The notes under the pieces were generated by a model, which saw nothing but the letters and a program-made list of their open reading frames with translations, had not been told where the DNA came from and did no database searches. A stretch of 64,000 nucleotides of DNA from Idiomarina fontislapidosi. Its GTDB lineage: Bacteria > Pseudomonadota > Gammaproteobacteria > Enterobacterales > Alteromonadaceae. The translations under genes were made by a program, and so were the position numbers. How positions within the stretch are numbered: the first letter of the stretch is position 1; each line of letters begins with the position of its first letter. The DNA is taken from NCBI RefSeq assembly GCF_003226255.1, contig NZ_QJST01000002.1, positions 1 to 64,000 on the forward strand, given 5' to 3'. Positions 446 to 9,235 of this stretch are shown in pieces.

Positions 446-760
446 GTGTTGCGGTTATTATCTGAATTCAGGAAATCCTTTATACGCTACTATGTTGACT
501 ACCAAAAACTAGAGTCTCAATTTTCTCTGTATGACGGTTCACACCGAGAGCTCGAGCAGCTTATAAAAAATAATATGAATGATTCAGGTTCTTATGAACA
601 CGTTCAGACGAGATACAGTGTAGTTAAAGATGGAGAAGACTCACACGTCGCATTGGTAACCGAGTTTCGAGGAGCTAATGCGTTTGGTGGTATTGTGAAA
701 CAAACAATTCATGCTAAAGCCGATCTCCAGACTGGAGAAATAATTGAAATTATCCAATAA
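446..760 (+). CDS. Short orphan protein, possibly the remnant of a longer gene
   Basis: 104 codons from a GTG. I do not recognise the family. The C-terminal half is the protein-like part: it has RYSVVKDGEDSHVALVTEFR followed by GANAFGGIVKQTIHAKADLQ, a charged beta-rich pattern without membrane segments. The N-terminal 25 residues are less convincing. An ATG four bases upstream in another frame opens only seven codons, so the true 5' end may have been lost. It lies right behind the end of the IS30 element, which supports truncation by insertion. It may still be expressed from a start at or downstream of the GTG. No clear ribosome binding site was found. Confidence 0.5.
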   Translation: MLRLLSEFRKSFIRYYVDYQKLESQFSLYDGSHRELEQLIKNNMNDSGSYEHVQTRYSVVKDGEDSHVALVTEFRGANAFGGIVKQTIHAKADLQTGEIIEIIQ

Positions 761-905: not shown

Positions 906-2750
906 ATGAAACTCTCTAACGTTCTCTCGACAGTCAATCAATTTGAGAAATCCAAGTTTATTAACTTCCTAGATCGTATTTGTTCGGAGGCGAGTGCGCA
1001 CGATAAAGAGCTCGCAAAGCAATTTAAGAATCTTGACGGTCAAATTAAGAACGCATCGAGTGGCGAGGTAACTCAGTTATTTAAGCTAGCACTGCCGCTT
1101 TATCAGAAAGAAGTAAAGTCACAACTGGCACTCAGTGGAGCACAGGCCGCACTTTTAGTAAATATTCTGAGCAGAGATGGAAATTGTGTAGCTCGTGTAT
1201 CTTGGATTGAACAATTATACGCTCGAGAATGGAAACAAATTGATGCACAAGCAAAAGAGCTGCAGACGTTTTTTACAAGCACTGACAAATCAGATGCGTA
1301 TGATGAACCTAAACGCCTTGCAATATATCATGCGTGTTTATACGAAGCGCTTCACAATGACGAGAGGGTGAATAGAGAGGGGAAAATCACCGATGAAGAA
1401 CGCGGGATTTTAAACGTACTTGCTCATAAGCTTGATGTTACAGCTGATAACCGCGTTGCTATTGAGCATTTGATCGATCCAATACCAAAAACTGGCGTAG
1501 CAGAATGCTTAAACCAGCTACGAGAAATCGGTATTGTTTTTGTTTCGAAGAAGCATCAAACGGTCTATGTCCCTGACGAAATTGTTGCCTTGTTGCACCG
1601 TATTCAGTCCAAGGAACTGGCTGACAAGCATCTACTCAGAATTTTAAGAACCTTTTCAGATGCTGAACTTTCAAATGTTTTAAAGAACCATGATAAACGG
1701 ATTCGTGGCGTCGACCGTGAAGACAAAATAGATACGGTTTTCAAAATGGGCTTATCCGTCAGCGATATTTTATGCAAGGACATGCATAATGAGCAGACGG
1801 CTCTCCCAGAAAGAAAAGATCGTCTGAAGCTACTGATTGATGACTTGCAACTTGCTGTAAATAAGTTGGGTTCTACGCTAGAAGAGCGGTGTAGTCTTAT
1901 TATCCAGTCATTAAACTCATCAGCGGAGCATGAGTTTAATATTCTGTCCGCGACGGGTTATAAGTCACTTTTTGCTACGCTCAGTCAACATATGCCAAAG
2001 CTGCCGGCGATGTTAAAAACTGAGTTCGAGCTAGAGCCTAACCAAGAAATTGATGTTGAGAAGCTCAGAGCTTTAGCAATAACGCCTTACGATATTCTGT
2101 TTATGCTATCTAACGATCAAATTAAGGCACTGAAGTCGGAAATGTGCATTAGTCGCCGAGGTGACGCAAGGCAGGTTATCTTAGAGAGTTTCGCAGATGC
2201 AACGGATAAGTTAGTCGAGAACTATGAGGCTCTTGCCCGAAGAGATCTAGCTGAGTTAAAGCAAAAAAATATAGAAATTGCAGAGGCAGATATTGGTGTT
2301 AAGTTCGAAGAAGTCACAAAGGCTATATTCGAAGAGTTAGGGTTAGTCGTTGATGAGGATCTGCGACGAGACATTAATACTGCGAAGGACAAGGCTGATA
2401 TTTTGTTATCGCTCAGCGAGGACGATATTATCATTGGTGAAGCGAAAACTTCTAAAAAAGGGGATTTTGCTAAATACTCAACAACCTCGAGGCAAGTAAA
2501 GGCCTATGTTTCACGCTGTGAAGCGGTGGGCAAACGCGTTGCCCAAGTGCTTATTGTTGCACCTAGTTTCTCGAATGACTTTGTTGAATCAGCTGAAATG
2601 GATACAGAGGTCAACATTTCTCTTCTGGAAGCTTCGGGACTAAAGAAAATACTGGAAGCGCATAAATCGCGCCGTAACCCTAAGTTTTCTGCCAAGCTAT
2701 TTACTAAAGGCGGGCTATTAAAAGCAGACTTGATAGCAAAAAATATTTAG
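906..2750 (+). CDS. Large orphan protein with TerB-like segment and C-terminal PD-(D/E)XK nuclease motif
   Basis: 614 residues, cytoplasmic, with no signal peptide or membrane segment. Residues about 138-190 look like a TerB-type helical domain with an acidic EF-hand-like turn (NDERVNREGKITDEERGIL). Residues about 251-285 and 402-430 are two similar short helical blocks that resemble SAP-type DNA-binding motifs; this is a weak call. Residues about 464-580 carry a restriction-endonuclease-like core: a helix with E468/E469, then D498 in KADILL, a beta strand, and E512-A-K514 in IIIGEAKTSKKG, which is the D...ExK pattern of PD-(D/E)XK nucleases. I infer a DNA-targeting nuclease, perhaps in defence. 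The gene is visibly AT-richer than the housekeeping genes to the right and sits next to an IS30 element, which suggests transfer. It has no obvious partner gene. No experimentally known homologue is recognised. Confidence 0.85.
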   Translation: MKLSNVLSTVNQFEKSKFINFLDRICSEASAHDKELAKQFKNLDGQIKNASSGEVTQLFKLALPLYQKEVKSQLALSGAQAALLVNILSRDGNCVARVSWIEQLYAREWKQIDAQAKELQTFFTSTDKSDAYDEPKRLAIYHACLYEALHNDERVNREGKITDEERGILNVLAHKLDVTADNRVAIEHLIDPIPKTGVAECLNQLREIGIVFVSKKHQTVYVPDEIVALLHRIQSKELADKHLLRILRTFSDAELSNVLKNHDKRIRGVDREDKIDTVFKMGLSVSDILCKDMHNEQTALPERKDRLKLLIDDLQLAVNKLGSTLEERCSLIIQSLNSSAEHEFNILSATGYKSLFATLSQHMPKLPAMLKTEFELEPNQEIDVEKLRALAITPYDILFMLSNDQIKALKSEMCISRRGDARQVILESFADATDKLVENYEALARRDLAELKQKNIEIAEADIGVKFEEVTKAIFEELGLVVDEDLRRDINTAKDKADILLSLSEDDIIIGEAKTSKKGDFAKYSTTSRQVKAYVSRCEAVGKRVAQVLIVAPSFSNDFVESAEMDTEVNISLLEASGLKKILEAHKSRRNPKFSAKLFTKGGLLKADLIAKNI

Positions 2751-2830
2751 CCAAAAGGCTGATAAATCGAGCCATTGATAATGGCGATAACTTTGGTAGC
2801 ACTTAATCTTAAGTTGTGAATCGATTGTGG

Positions 2831-2851
2831 ACTTGCGCCAAAGGCGCAAGT
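2831..2851. repeat. REP-like palindrome, copy 1
   Basis: Perfect 9-base inverted repeat with an AAA loop (ACTTGCGCC AAA GGCGCAAGT). The reverse strand reads GTAA followed by the hairpin. A second element with the same core, CGCC-AAA-GGCG, lies near base 35243 and is headed by GTAG on its reverse strand. Two degenerate repeats of GCAAGTTA follow downstream of this copy before the next gene. It could also act as a transcription terminator for the flanking convergent genes, although no T-run follows. Confidence 0.6.
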
Positions 2852-2909: not shown

Positions 2910-3584
2910 TTATTCCTCAAACACCAAGCCATCGGGATCGGCGCCTAGCTCTTTTAATGCGTCCATTATGCCGTTGTTGAATGCATCGGGGCCGCAGACG
3001 TAAAAGTGCTGGTTAAAGTGGTTGATATGCTCGTTTAGAAAGGCTTTATCGATGTGTCCATCGATAAACAGGTGATCGCCGTTTGGTTTTTCGTGCGTGA
3101 TGACATTGATGAATTGATCACCGAGTATTTGCTCGAATTCCTCTTTCAAAATAATGTCTTTTTCACCGCTATTCGAGAAGATGAGTCGGTTATTGCCAAT
3201 TTCACCTTTGCGTGCCAAATCGCGAAAAATAGCGATAAATGGCGTGACACCTGCGCCACCTGCGATAAATGTACCTTCGCCTTTGTATTCGATGGCACCC
3301 CAAGGGTCTTCGATAATTAGCGAATCGCCTTTTTGCAACTGACCAATTTGTTCTGTGACGCCATCATGATCGGGATACACCTTAATCACAAACTCGAGCC
3401 ACGGATCGCTGTTGAGCGACGTGAAAGTAAACGGGCGTTTCTCATCGCGCCAACCTTCTTTATCGATCGCGACCTCGGTAGCTTGTCCCGGGGTGAAATT
3501 ATAATCGTCCGGCTTTTCTAATCGAATCCGTCTCACGTTGTGAGTGACTTCGGTAACATCGTTTACTTTTAATGTATGGCTCAT
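2910..3584 (-). CDS. FAD/NAD(P)-dependent oxidoreductase of the ferredoxin reductase family
   Basis: 224 residues with the two-domain layout of ferredoxin-NADP reductase-like flavoproteins. Residues about 1-100 form the FAD-binding barrel, with the signature RPFTFTS. From about residue 105 comes the nucleotide-binding domain, with GGAGVTPFIAIFRDL and the closing YVCGPDAF motif. It lacks a [2Fe-2S] domain, so electrons must pass to a separate partner protein, which I cannot name. A GAGGT ribosome site sits just ahead of the ATG. The gene is a single unit; its upstream neighbour on the same strand is a Kelch remnant. The family is confident, the physiological substrate unknown. Confidence 0.88.
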   Translation of the reverse strand: MSHTLKVNDVTEVTHNVRRIRLEKPDDYNFTPGQATEVAIDKEGWRDEKRPFTFTSLNSDPWLEFVIKVYPDHDGVTEQIGQLQKGDSLIIEDPWGAIEYKGEGTFIAGGAGVTPFIAIFRDLARKGEIGNNRLIFSNSGEKDIILKEEFEQILGDQFINVITHEKPNGDHLFIDGHIDKAFLNEHINHFNQHFYVCGPDAFNNGIMDALKELGADPDGLVFEE

Positions 3585-5831: not shown

Positions 5832-6632
5832 TTAACTTTGCGCAAAAGTTAGAATAGCATTTTCATCATTGACGTTTGCTACCAATAGTTTATGCATTTT
5901 TGCGGCATTGATCGCATCGGTATAGGCTGTATAAAATTCGTTTTTAGTTGGTTTCTCTACAGCTAAAAGCATGCAATTACTAATTATTATACCTTCGTTG
6001 TTTAAACGCGTAAGTCTGTCGACCCACTGTTTGGTATGCTCATAAGCCGCCAAGGGGGTTTTACGTTCAAACGCAATTGGCTTGATAGCCTCTAAACCTT
6101 TGTTGGTTTTTCGAACGAAAGGTAATCGGAAAGAGCCTAGATTAGTGTTTAGCTCTTTTTGTCCGAAACCAGAAATATTCTTGGTTTTGAACAATGTTCG
6201 AATATTTCGCTCCAACACGGTTTCGCGATACTGTTCAGTTAAGAAACGACGTTCAACATAATGTTCAAAAAGGTTATTCAGCTTCTCATCAACATTGTTG
6301 ACTATAGCTGTACTTACTTTACCAAAGTAAACCACGCCTTCGCGGTGGCGAGTTAGTTCATCAAATAGATCGGCTGTTCTTTTACCTGGATTTTCATAAG
6401 CGAACTGCTTTAAACGGTTTAATTCTGCGTTGACCATCTCAATTGCTTTACCAAATAGACGACCGTCAAGGTCATCAAAAAATTGGTTTATTCGAGCAAA
6501 CCGTTTTCTAGCAAGTTTAAACTCTATTTTACCCTTATCAGGTGCACACACTACTATACCGATATTCGCAAACTCCTGAGTCTCTGCAAACGGCATGAAA
6601 CGCACAGTAGCGTACATACATAGTGTTTTCAT
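5832..6632 (-). CDS. DUF3037-family protein, partner of the HipA-like kinase
   Basis: 266 residues, cytoplasmic. The first 130 residues match the pattern of DUF3037: MYATVRFMPFAETQEFANIG, then IVVCAPDKGKIEFKLARKR and a helix around residues 45-80. In this family DUF3037 genes are commonly found beside a small HipA-like kinase gene, exactly as here. Its start overlaps the stop of the kinase gene in an ATGA arrangement, so the two are translationally coupled and probably act together. The molecular function of DUF3037 is not established; a role as a regulator or substrate of the kinase is inference. The pair is AT-rich compared with the genes to its right. Confidence 0.82.
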   Translation of the reverse strand: MKTLCMYATVRFMPFAETQEFANIGIVVCAPDKGKIEFKLARKRFARINQFFDDLDGRLFGKAIEMVNAELNRLKQFAYENPGKRTADLFDELTRHREGVVYFGKVSTAIVNNVDEKLNNLFEHYVERRFLTEQYRETVLERNIRTLFKTKNISGFGQKELNTNLGSFRLPFVRKTNKGLEAIKPIAFERKTPLAAYEHTKQWVDRLTRLNNEGIIISNCMLLAVEKPTKNEFYTAYTDAINAAKMHKLLVANVNDENAILTFAQS

Positions 6633-7336
6633 GTTATCTGCCTCCAGAAGCTATCTTCAAATATTTGATCCAATATTAACCGAATTTGACTAAAGTAGTC
6701 ATCACTTGGTTCCCAGTCTTTTGGGACTTCCTTAAATATTTGGTCGATTTTATCGATGCAAGAATCAGCTTTTGATTGAAAATAGTCTTTTGAAGGCAGG
6801 TTACGTTGCTCAATCCAAGCGTCTGAACCCAAATGAGAGCTTTTAAACTCATCTAGTTTGAAATTCATATCAAAGGCCAAATTATGATCCAACGCCCAAA
6901 ATTTGGTTTCTGCAGGTTGGTAGAAAAGGTTTGGGTTGCCACCTATAGCTGACAGGGTTCGATCTTCATTACGGACCCATAGGTCGAAGATAAATAATTC
7001 TGAAGCCAATGACTTTCCTTGATTGGTAAGTAACTGGTACGTAATGGGTTGTAACCCTTCAATGAATTCTGATGCAAATGCGACTCCCTCGCCAAGAGAG
7101 TTGCTAGCAGCATCATTGTATCTGAGAAGAAGGTGATCGATATAAGCAGTCTCAAATTGAGGTACGGGTAGCCCAAATAGTCTAGCAAGGTGGGCACTGA
7201 TGAACTCAGCAATCAGCTGTCGATTCGTGGTAGCCTGACCTTTTACTACGTAGCTCTTCCCATCATCTGCTAAGCAAAGGAAAGGGTTTGTTGCACCTTG
7301 TTCGATGGGTCTTAGAATGTCAGTTATTTCAATCAT
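6629..7336 (-). CDS. Compact HipA-like kinase (HipA_2 type)
   Basis: 235 residues, about half the length of HipA toxins such as E. coli HipA (about 440 residues), with no HipA N1 domain. Visible kinase features are K32 in KSYVVKGQ (probable ATP-contacting lysine), the catalytic-loop segment FIFDLWVRNEDRTL with D125 as likely base, NPNLF near 134-138, and D150 in WALDHNLAFD as probable magnesium ligand. This matches the small HipA-like kinases that occur with DUF3037 proteins. It is the first gene of the pair and shares an ATGA overlap with the DUF3037 gene. No HipB-like DNA-binding antitoxin is encoded nearby, so a classic HipBA module is not supported. The substrate is unknown. Confidence 0.82.
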   Translation of the reverse strand: MIEITDILRPIEQGATNPFLCLADDGKSYVVKGQATTNRQLIAEFISAHLARLFGLPVPQFETAYIDHLLLRYNDAASNSLGEGVAFASEFIEGLQPITYQLLTNQGKSLASELFIFDLWVRNEDRTLSAIGGNPNLFYQPAETKFWALDHNLAFDMNFKLDEFKSSHLGSDAWIEQRNLPSKDYFQSKADSCIDKIDQIFKEVPKDWEPSDDYFSQIRLILDQIFEDSFWRQIT

Positions 7337-7540: not shown

Positions 7541-9235
7541 ATGTCCGAAAACATCGCATACTATTCAAAATATGCCGAGTCACTAGCTGATAATTATAAT
7601 CGCGTGCCGTTTGAGTCGGTCCATAAAGGCTGGCTACATGCGTTGCCAGAGCAGGGCATGGTGCTTGATGTAGGGGCGGGCTCAGGGCGTGATGCGCGCT
7701 ATTTGGCTGCACGCGGCTTAAATGTCGTCGCGGTAGAGCCCGCGCACGGGATCCGCGAAGTCGCGCAGCAATATACCGTCAATAGTGCCGTACGTTGGAT
7801 AGCCGACAGCCTGCCCGATTTAACTAAAGTCTTTGCGCTGCAAACCAAATTTGACCTGATCCTACTCAGTGCGGTGTGGATGCATATCCCATCATCGACT
7901 CGCGAGCGCAGCCTGCGCAAATTAAGTAGCTTATTAAAGCCCAATGGTAGGTTGGTGATCTCGCTGCGTCACGGTGCCTGTCACGATGAGCGTACGATGT
8001 ACCCTGTTTCGGCGGACGAGCTGGCGCAACTGGCGAGTCATTACGGCCTAACCTTTGAATTACTGACCCCTGAGCAACAAACCGATGAGTTAGGTCGCGA
8101 TGATGTGAGTTGGCAGACGGTCATGCTGACGCTGCCAGATGACGGCACGGGGGCGTTTCCGCTACTCCGCAATATCGTTGTGAATGACAATAAAACATCA
8201 ACGTATAAAGTTGCGTTGTTGCGCAGCTTGCTCCGCATTGCCGAAGGTCATCCGGGCGCTGTGTTGGAGCAAACAGACGACCACATCGCACTCCCTGTGG
8301 GATTGGTGGCATTGTATTGGCTAAAACTGTACAAGCCCTTAGTCGATCATTATGGCATGCATCAAAGCACTAATAGCGGTAAAGGGCTTGGCTTTGTGAA
8401 ACCCCACGGCTGGCAATTACTCAGCGACCGCAGTGCAGAGGATTTTAGTATTGGCGCTCAGTATCGCGATGAGGATATTGTGCAGCCGCTGTACCGAGCC
8501 TTAAAAGATATTGCTTCAACGATTAAAAACATGCCCGCCAAATACATCACCATCCCGGGCTCGGGTAATGCTGTGTTTGCAGTTGAGCTGAATCGCACGC
8601 AAAAGCCAAAGCGAAACCTCACCTTAGACTTACCATTTTTAAGTGCGTTGGGTACCTTTTATGTGCCCAAGCACATTTGGGATTCATTAACGCGTTTTAG
8701 CGTTTGGATTGAACCTGCGCTGGTGAATGAATGGGCGGCGCTCATGGCAAGTTATGCGCCGAATAAGCAAAAGGCATTTAACCGAAGCGATTATTTAGTA
8801 GCGCTCGATTGGAAAGACGACACACGAACCACAACACGGGTGCGTCAACGCATCAACACATTGCTGGCAGAGGATAAGGTGCATTGTTGTTGGACCGGTA
8901 GACCGATTAAGCCTAACCGCTATGCTGTTGATCATGCGTTTCCCTTTGCCCGGTGGCCCAATAATGACCTTTGGAACCTGTTGCCCAGCCAAGCCAAAGT
9001 CAACTTAGAGAAATTAGATAGGTTACCCAGTCGCGAACGATTGAGCACCGCAAGAGAATTGATTCTGACGTGGTGGCAGCAGGGCTGGCAGATAAATAAA
9101 AGTGAATTTTTTACTCAAGCCAACCTGGCGCTGCCCAATTTAAGCCACCACAACCAAAGCTTTGATGATGTATTTGAAGCGTTGGCGCTACAGCGGGATA
9201 GAATTAAAGATATCCAGCAATTAGCGGAGTGGTGA
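7541..9235 (+). CDS. Fusion protein: class I methyltransferase plus HNH endonuclease
   Basis: 564 residues. Residues about 35-200 form a class I SAM-dependent methyltransferase: motif I VLDVGAGSGRDARYLA, acidic residue E66 in VAVEP, FDLILLSAVWMHI and LLKPNGRLVISL. Residues about 205-420 are a linker domain that I do not recognise. Residues about 430-500 contain an HNH-type nuclease motif: CCWTGRPIKPNRYAVDHAFP, with D464-H465, then NNDLWNLLPSQAKVN supplying N479 and N488. The methyltransferase half looks like the Methyltransf_11 group and lacks the NPPY/DPPY motif of DNA amino-methylases, so a fused restriction-modification enzyme is not proved. The gene stands alone, divergent from the HipA-like pair. 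The ribosome site is weak. Confidence 0.85.
   Translation: MSENIAYYSKYAESLADNYNRVPFESVHKGWLHALPEQGMVLDVGAGSGRDARYLAARGLNVVAVEPAHGIREVAQQYTVNSAVRWIADSLPDLTKVFALQTKFDLILLSAVWMHIPSSTRERSLRKLSSLLKPNGRLVISLRHGACHDERTMYPVSADELAQLASHYGLTFELLTPEQQTDELGRDDVSWQTVMLTLPDDGTGAFPLLRNIVVNDNKTSTYKVALLRSLLRIAEGHPGAVLEQTDDHIALPVGLVALYWLKLYKPLVDHYGMHQSTNSGKGLGFVKPHGWQLLSDRSAEDFSIGAQYRDEDIVQPLYRALKDIASTIKNMPAKYITIPGSGNAVFAVELNRTQKPKRNLTLDLPFLSALGTFYVPKHIWDSLTRFSVWIEPALVNEWAALMASYAPNKQKAFNRSDYLVALDWKDDTRTTTRVRQRINTLLAEDKVHCCWTGRPIKPNRYAVDHAFPFARWPNNDLWNLLPSQAKVNLEKLDRLPSRERLSTARELILTWWQQGWQINKSEFFTQANLALPNLSHHNQSFDDVFEALALQRDRIKDIQQLAEW

Follow-up and report, generated by a model that had tools for sequence, protein, structure and literature searches.

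The window analyzed here is a stretch of 64,000 nucleotides from Idiomarina fontislapidosi whose first base is also the first base of a contig of 455,440 bases. Near this end it carries an ATG-initiated open reading frame encoding a protein of 614 residues, which we named F (Table 1). The initial annotation had described a single AT-rich gene at this place, and both points were confirmed, with full-length homologues at 52 loci (45 of them open throughout) and a G+C content of 41.8% against 47.3% for the window. The homologous genes were likewise lower in G+C than their own loci in 45 of 52 cases, equal in 2, and higher in 5. The F gene is flanked by an insertion sequence fragment at the contig edge and by a convergent oxidoreductase gene. 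As had been claimed, an insertion sequence lies beside F, to its left, where the N-terminal portion of a transposase with an HTH_38 domain was found; from this domain we take the element to be of the IS30 type. The genome contains five further 100% copies of the terminal 64-68 bp of the element, and two of these lie at base 1 of a contig, so that the assembly probably breaks inside this repeat at the contig start. The element end cuts the remnant of an accessory gene that matches only the C-terminal third of phrog_3403. On the right side, homology to three congeners that lack F (G009, G013, and G018) resumes 70 bp 3' of the F gene, beside a palindromic repeat. Pieces of the left flank matched scattered contigs only, and no clean empty site was found among the Idiomarina genomes, in which the region varies wholesale. 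The palindromic repeat at the right border is present in five copies in the genome at no more than one mismatch, and the reversed control gave none. Further to the right, a DUF3037 gene and a HipA_2 kinase-like gene lie side by side and match the PADLOC candidates PDC-M66B and PDC-M66A, and they are followed by a gene for a 564-residue protein with an N-terminal methyltransferase domain, a C-terminal HNH_4 domain, and a weak resemblance to Cas9/PtuB, which is possibly another defence protein.

Table 1. Position of the F gene, its predicted parts, and surrounding features in the window
Feature	Position	Strand	Basis or remarks
IS30-like transposase fragment, N-terminal 124 residues, running off the contig end	3..374	-	HTH_38 (PF13936, 2.1e-14); element end near 445
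Accessory-gene C-terminal remnant	446..760	+	Match to phrog_3403 (positions 156-242 of 243); truncated at the IS end
F gene	906..2750	+	Helical N terminus, winged helix, helical middle, C-terminal PD-(D/E)XK nuclease; from the open reading frame, homologues, model, and phrog_34709
Modelled winged helix, residues 163-221 (initially annotated as TerB-like)	1392..1568	+	Secondary structure; weak fold matches
Putative SAP-like helix-loop-helix block 1, residues 252-281	1659..1748	+	Model
Putative SAP-like helix-loop-helix block 2, residues 403-438	2112..2219	+	Model
PD-(D/E)XK core, residues 460-587	2283..2666	+	Invariant columns; Foldseek matches to FokI and the BspD6I small subunit
D498	2397-2399	+	
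E512	2439-2441	+	
K514	2445-2447	+	
Q530	2493-2495	+	
Right end of the accessory DNA	2820..2820	.	Start of blastn homology to three congeners without F
Palindromic repeat	2831-2851		
Oxidoreductase gene	2910..3584		Convergent with F
DUF3037 and HipA_2 genes	5832-7336	-	PADLOC candidates PDC-M66B and PDC-M66A
HipA_2 gene	6629..7336	-	
Methyltransferase-HNH_4 protein gene	7541-9235	+	564 residues

A restriction-endonuclease-like core built around D498, E512, and K514 had been proposed for the C-terminal part of F, and this proposal held. These three residues, together with Q530 and E469, are identical in all 46 aligned intact copies, in which the mean column identity is 72%. The protein was modelled with confidence (mean pLDDT 88.1, pTM 0.76), and a Foldseek search of solved structures with this model ranked FokI at the top (E 8.6e-4, probability 1.00), with the small subunit of R.BspD6I in fourth place (E 0.075, probability 1.00). 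F thus combines the D...ExK active site (46/46) with the alpha-beta core of the PD-(D/E)XK superfamily, the latter seen in the model and in the Foldseek matches. The overall TM-score with FokI was low (0.18-0.21), so only part of the F chain agrees with it, and sequence searches of solved structures returned no credible nuclease match. A structure search among viral proteins gave weak matches only. In FokI a DNA-binding part precedes the nuclease. The same general layout, a DNA-binding front (predicted in the case of F) and a PD-(D/E)XK back, relates F to the Mrr-type restriction proteins, which are stand-alone enzymes; a possible difference is that the Mrr_cat profile (PF04471) was matched by only 2 of 46 homologues, with a best E of 0.015.

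The front part of F did not bear out the TerB-like segment that had been read at residues 138-195. Residues 163-221 form three helices and a beta hairpin, both in the model of the whole protein and when residues 90-300 were modelled alone, and the solved structures matched by residues 90-300 are mostly winged-helix proteins, each of the matches being weak (E 0.9-2.8). Among the 46 homologues, winged-helix Pfam models appeared at low significance (eWH_GTF3C1 in 13 and TrmB in 11), at counts similar to those of the unrelated families TAF10 (11) and Tfb2 (10). A winged helix is likely on the basis of the models. TerB gave no Pfam match to F of the window at E up to 10, and it was absent among the 25 of 64 Pfam families listed for the 46 homologues, a comparison in which the HMMER filters lose most weak matches; we rejected it, since a winged helix with a hairpin was modelled in place of the all-helical fold. 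The order TerB-SAP-SAP-nuclease that had been put forward is not supported, with a winged helix in the place of TerB and with two putative SAP blocks that are candidates read from modelled helix-loop-helix pairs. SAP was not listed by Pfam for F of the window, and the two blocks aligned with each other unconvincingly, at an hhalign probability of 1.4%.

The scan of genome contigs yielded 53 loci, all but one with a full-length match (52), and further loci were added from other samples. The relatives of F are 52-88% identical and 613-625 residues long, and they form a compact family for which a class-level search returned no credible distant kin. The one weak hit, in G065 (E 9.6e-4), falls in an open reading frame that by eye resembles a type I methylase, and it was taken as a chance match. 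F received no name from NCBIfam, from PADLOC, or, at the Pfam cut-offs, from Pfam, and none of the families of PADLOC-DB 2.0.0 matched it at E up to 1. The one family that matches F from end to end (residues 1-614), and to which it belongs, is phrog_34709, listed as of unknown function. In searches of open-licence papers we recognised no description of the F family, of its combination of domains, or of its position ahead of changing cassettes; the parts themselves are known.

The accessory status and the link to defence that had been suggested for F are in agreement with its patchy spread, its presence on predicted viral contigs, and its defence-like neighbours. F was present in 5 of 18 congeners. 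Besides the window genome, there were 2 credible carriers in a class sample of 369 genomes and 3 carriers in a phylum sample of 398 genomes, and an order sample contained 7 carriers in 394 genomes including that of the window, one of the 6 others being partial. The tree closely joins copies from different families; for example, the copy of a Colwellia metagenome bin groups with Pseudoalteromonas, and that of Marinomonas with Colwellia. Seven of the 52 copies are interrupted in their assemblies, three of which (L036, L043, and L051) come from metagenome bins, where errors are possible. Two predicted viral contigs of IMG/VR carry a whole F and a third carries its first 227 residues at the contig end; in L066 the gene lies opposite a run of phage structural genes that look by eye like Mu-like head genes, and in L065 and L141 it lies behind tail genes, named by eye. 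F was also found on three large Pseudoalteromonas plasmid records of 0.68-0.84 Mb, and the phage records searched gave no match. Judged from these occurrences, F is a patchily spread accessory gene that is probably mobile.

One alternative is that F is a selfish, free-standing nuclease of the homing type that spreads by cutting empty sites. Such a role would suit the many unrelated sites occupied, with no constant neighbour able to move F among the neighbour clusters, and the three genomes of another genus in which F sits behind the same gene, by eye valS. The site behind the valS-like gene differs between species in that genus. Nevertheless, no shared target sequence was noticed on unsystematic inspection, the Idiomarina site differs wholesale and offers no clean empty site, and selfish spread leaves the defence-like neighbours and the carriage by phages unexplained, so that we consider this explanation very unlikely.

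To characterize the neighbourhood, the two nearest open reading frames of at least 120 residues on each side of F were collected (224, or 177 after deduplication), of which 145, shorter than 1300 residues and reduced by a random cut for size, were scanned. No second gene is conserved beside F, since the largest neighbour cluster occurs in 11 of the 53 loci. At 1e-15 the F neighbours matched 173 PADLOC families, in contrast to 32 matched by 150 controls (drawn from 196, of 209) from nine genomes, a comparison between different sets of genomes that counts overlapping families rather than proteins. A second comparison was limited to the first downstream gene when it lay on the same strand within 100 bp and encoded at least 120 residues. 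The 19 genes so defined, which exclude L019 and L039 as short and L068 as a near copy of L028, included 12 with a match to a PADLOC defence model at 1e-5 (L009, L018, L028, L031, L032, L036, L037, L046, L049, L050, L053, and L069), the weakest being those of L031 (about 1e-6) and L069 (about 1e-7), whereas none of 10 random controls of similar length had one. The genes at L025, L026, L034, L045, L054, L060, and L065 gave no such match. Pfam assigned the downstream genes to SIR2, AAA_13, HATPase, KAP, nSTAND, Abi_2, AAA_15, putAbiC, and Metallophos, and also to a TetR regulator and a hydrolase, and in L028 the cassette continues with a HerA-like gene. The downstream gene of L013, which at 127 bp falls outside the 100-bp rule, is a HipA_2 gene of the same kind as that in the window. 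At seven further loci (L147-L153; L146 repeats L054 and was left out) the neighbours looked ordinary by eye.

The initial annotation had also suggested that F is an anti-phage or anti-plasmid nuclease that works without partners, and for the absence of partners this stood in part. The window copy and 30 of 50 other intact copies have no close same-strand gene downstream; the remaining 20 do have one, and it is often defence-like, so that a partnership is conceivable. Bacterial genes commonly have a same-strand neighbour within 100 bp; what is unusual behind F is the kind of gene, the rate being ordinary. A crude terminator scan did not separate the two classes (0/20 copies with a cassette and 3/30 solo copies).

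DNA homology between loci mostly ended sharply behind F. In 72 of 80 pairs, belonging to six groups, the end lay no more than 7 bp from the F stop codon; the eight exceptions were L028-L068, which share the same cassette and agree for another 3,759 bp, L046-L052 and L050-L021, which agree for another 95 and 16 bp, respectively, and five pairs ending 16-40 bp before the stop. Upstream of F, homology extended for 14-513 bp in most pairs from Pseudoalteromonas, Rheinheimera, and Idiomarina and, in a few, for kilobases. In most pairs of the Alteromonas group, it ended near the F start codon too. The sharp end in distant pairs thus reflects no more than coding constraint, and the argument for exchange is one from close pairs. 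One of these is L028-L069, in which the 10,769 bp ending at the F stop codon are 98.5% identical. Past it, the two loci carry different cassettes (SIR2-HerA in one and a phosphoesterase in the other), and homology resumes at 97.7% after 4,061 and 3,901 bp, respectively. The differences between these two F genes are concentrated in the last coding bases (9 in 150, compared with 15 in the 1,692 before; p 5.6e-5), and the same was observed for L052-L054 (19 in 150, compared with 58 in 1,722; p 4.3e-6), despite the fact that the 3' end of F usually changes more slowly than the rest (with a median ratio of 0.71 over the 55 pairs formed by 11 sequences). This excess suggests that donors brought the end of F along with the cassette. 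The crossover signal was clear in 2 of 14 pairs, nominal in 3 (p 0.017-0.023, uncorrected), and absent in 9. Ordinary homologous recombination between flanking genes is a sufficient explanation for the cassette swap. At the other side, the exchanged segment in L028, L032, L034, L068, and L069 reaches as far as the end of a helicase-like gene that is convergent with F (with DUF3427 in L068 and DEAD/DEAH in L069), and it thus lies between two convergent genes.

These cassettes could mean that F is the shared module of composite defence systems, co-transcribed and cooperating with a second gene that is swapped (SIR2, a KAP or AAA NTPase, HATPase, Abi, or phosphoesterase). The close same-strand genes in 20 of 50 copies, 12 of 19 with defence models, and the near-identical F genes followed by different cassettes would agree with it, and a precedent is offered by PMC12799240, in which a nuclease gene stands upstream of unrelated immune systems. 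Against this, the window copy and the other solo copies lack such a gene, the rate of close genes is nothing out of the ordinary, the terminator scan was alike in both classes, and several of the downstream genes match PADLOC candidates whose names we read as those of single-gene systems, which may act alone. We therefore regard this explanation as rather unlikely. In the fullest form of this idea, F, as a conserved winged-helix and FokI-like protein, would be the constant half of a modular platform for defence, and an exchange slot would begin on its left at the F stop codon. Unrelated effectors or sensors (SIR2-HerA, KAP, AAA, HATPase, Abi, or phosphoesterase) would enter the slot by recombination through the F 3' end; they would be expressed together with F, which may serve them as a common nuclease or DNA sensor. 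That wider proposal we put forward as a speculative one, with a minor chance of being correct.

Alternatively, F might be mainly a regulator, its winged helix controlling its own promoter together with the immune operon behind it, in the manner of CapK/CapS, which PMC13373217 places upstream of diverse immune operons. In addition to the predicted winged helix, this would be in agreement with the finding that a same-strand open reading frame lies within 100 bp upstream of F in only 4 of 58 loci, from which it follows that F probably starts its transcript. Nevertheless, a pure regulator would have no use for the nuclease active site, which is conserved throughout, and F is often alone; a predominantly regulatory role is accordingly improbable. 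Both precedents resemble F in being conserved and in preceding immune genes of diverse kinds, but they have folds of their own, a metallo-beta-lactamase-type nuclease in the nuclease-protease pairs (PMC12799240) and a kinase and a STAS-like repressor in CapK/CapS (PMC13373217), and they differ from F also in that it often stands alone.

The resemblance to FokI, the top fold match, raised in turn the possibility of a type IIS restriction enzyme whose methyltransferase is distant or lost. FokI and the R.BspD6I small subunit share with F the nuclease fold, but F lacks a constant methyltransferase. A restriction-modification system with an adjacent partner was rejected, since no methyltransferase recurs beside F: no neighbour cluster exceeds the 11 loci mentioned above, and each type II methyltransferase model among the 25 of the 173 matched families that were listed was matched by 2 of the 145 neighbours, a count from clusters and models that divergent methyltransferases could escape. 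With no recurrent partner beside it, and with F alone in different hosts, a type IIS enzyme is the least probable of the alternatives considered here.

The lack of a cognate methyltransferase at its side, with the same reservation for divergent ones, is a trait that F shares with type IV restriction enzymes. Among these, the winged-helix fusion endonucleases (DpnI, FcyTI, and Psp4BI) also unite a winged helix and a PD-(D/E)XK domain in one protein, and PMC11037411 describes them as modification-dependent enzymes that read methylated GATC, mostly with no adjacent methyltransferase and in some cases with one nearby. F differs from them in its reversed order, with the winged helix first, and in its size, 614 residues as compared with about 31 kDa for FcyTI (PMC11037411). 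For a DpnI-like reader of methylated GATC, moreover, a Dam-free host would be expected, yet the Dam model scored above its cut-off in 12 of 14 carriers (all but G057 and G246). The model is not perfectly specific, since it also had matches in 4 of 14 control genomes, 3 of them above the cut-off. Because most carriers appear to encode Dam, methylated GATC is an unlikely target of F in most hosts, and another modification or an infection-specific form of DNA would be expected instead.

Taken together, these data lead us to favour, with moderate and evenly balanced confidence, the view that F is a mobile single-gene nuclease, restriction-like and with a type IV-like action, that serves as an accessory defence gene. 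Its starting points are what the sequences contain, namely the gene, its conserved active site and predicted fold, its patchy distribution, its occurrence on predicted viral contigs, and its defence-like neighbours. F would move horizontally as one gene; its helical and winged-helix part would bind DNA, and its FokI-like C-terminal domain would cut it. Because no constant methyltransferase accompanies it, F must tell foreign DNA from that of its host, which it would spare by recognising something foreign, either a modification other than Dam methylation or a form of DNA made during infection. F would thus work like a modification-dependent (type IV) restriction enzyme, a target proposed from the missing methyltransferase partner and by analogy. 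Both bacteria and temperate phages may keep F for the defence that it would provide, and other defence genes would settle, and be exchanged, directly behind it. As a highly conserved family found on its own, on predicted viral contigs, on large plasmids, and ahead of varying defence-type cassettes, F makes a good candidate for a new restriction protein that stands alone in Gammaproteobacteria. Should the cassette be functionally coupled to F, the locus would illustrate the pairing of one nuclease module with unrelated immune sensors, and F could be used as a bait gene for new defence genes behind it.

A stretch of 13 bases, TCTAGATTGGGTA, was observed 95-104 bases before the start of F in 12 loci (L037-L040, L044-L046, L049, L052-L054, and L060), whose hosts are Rheinheimera, Alkalimonas, Arsukibacterium, and a gammaproteobacterial bin. 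This stretch is perhaps an operator or a promoter.
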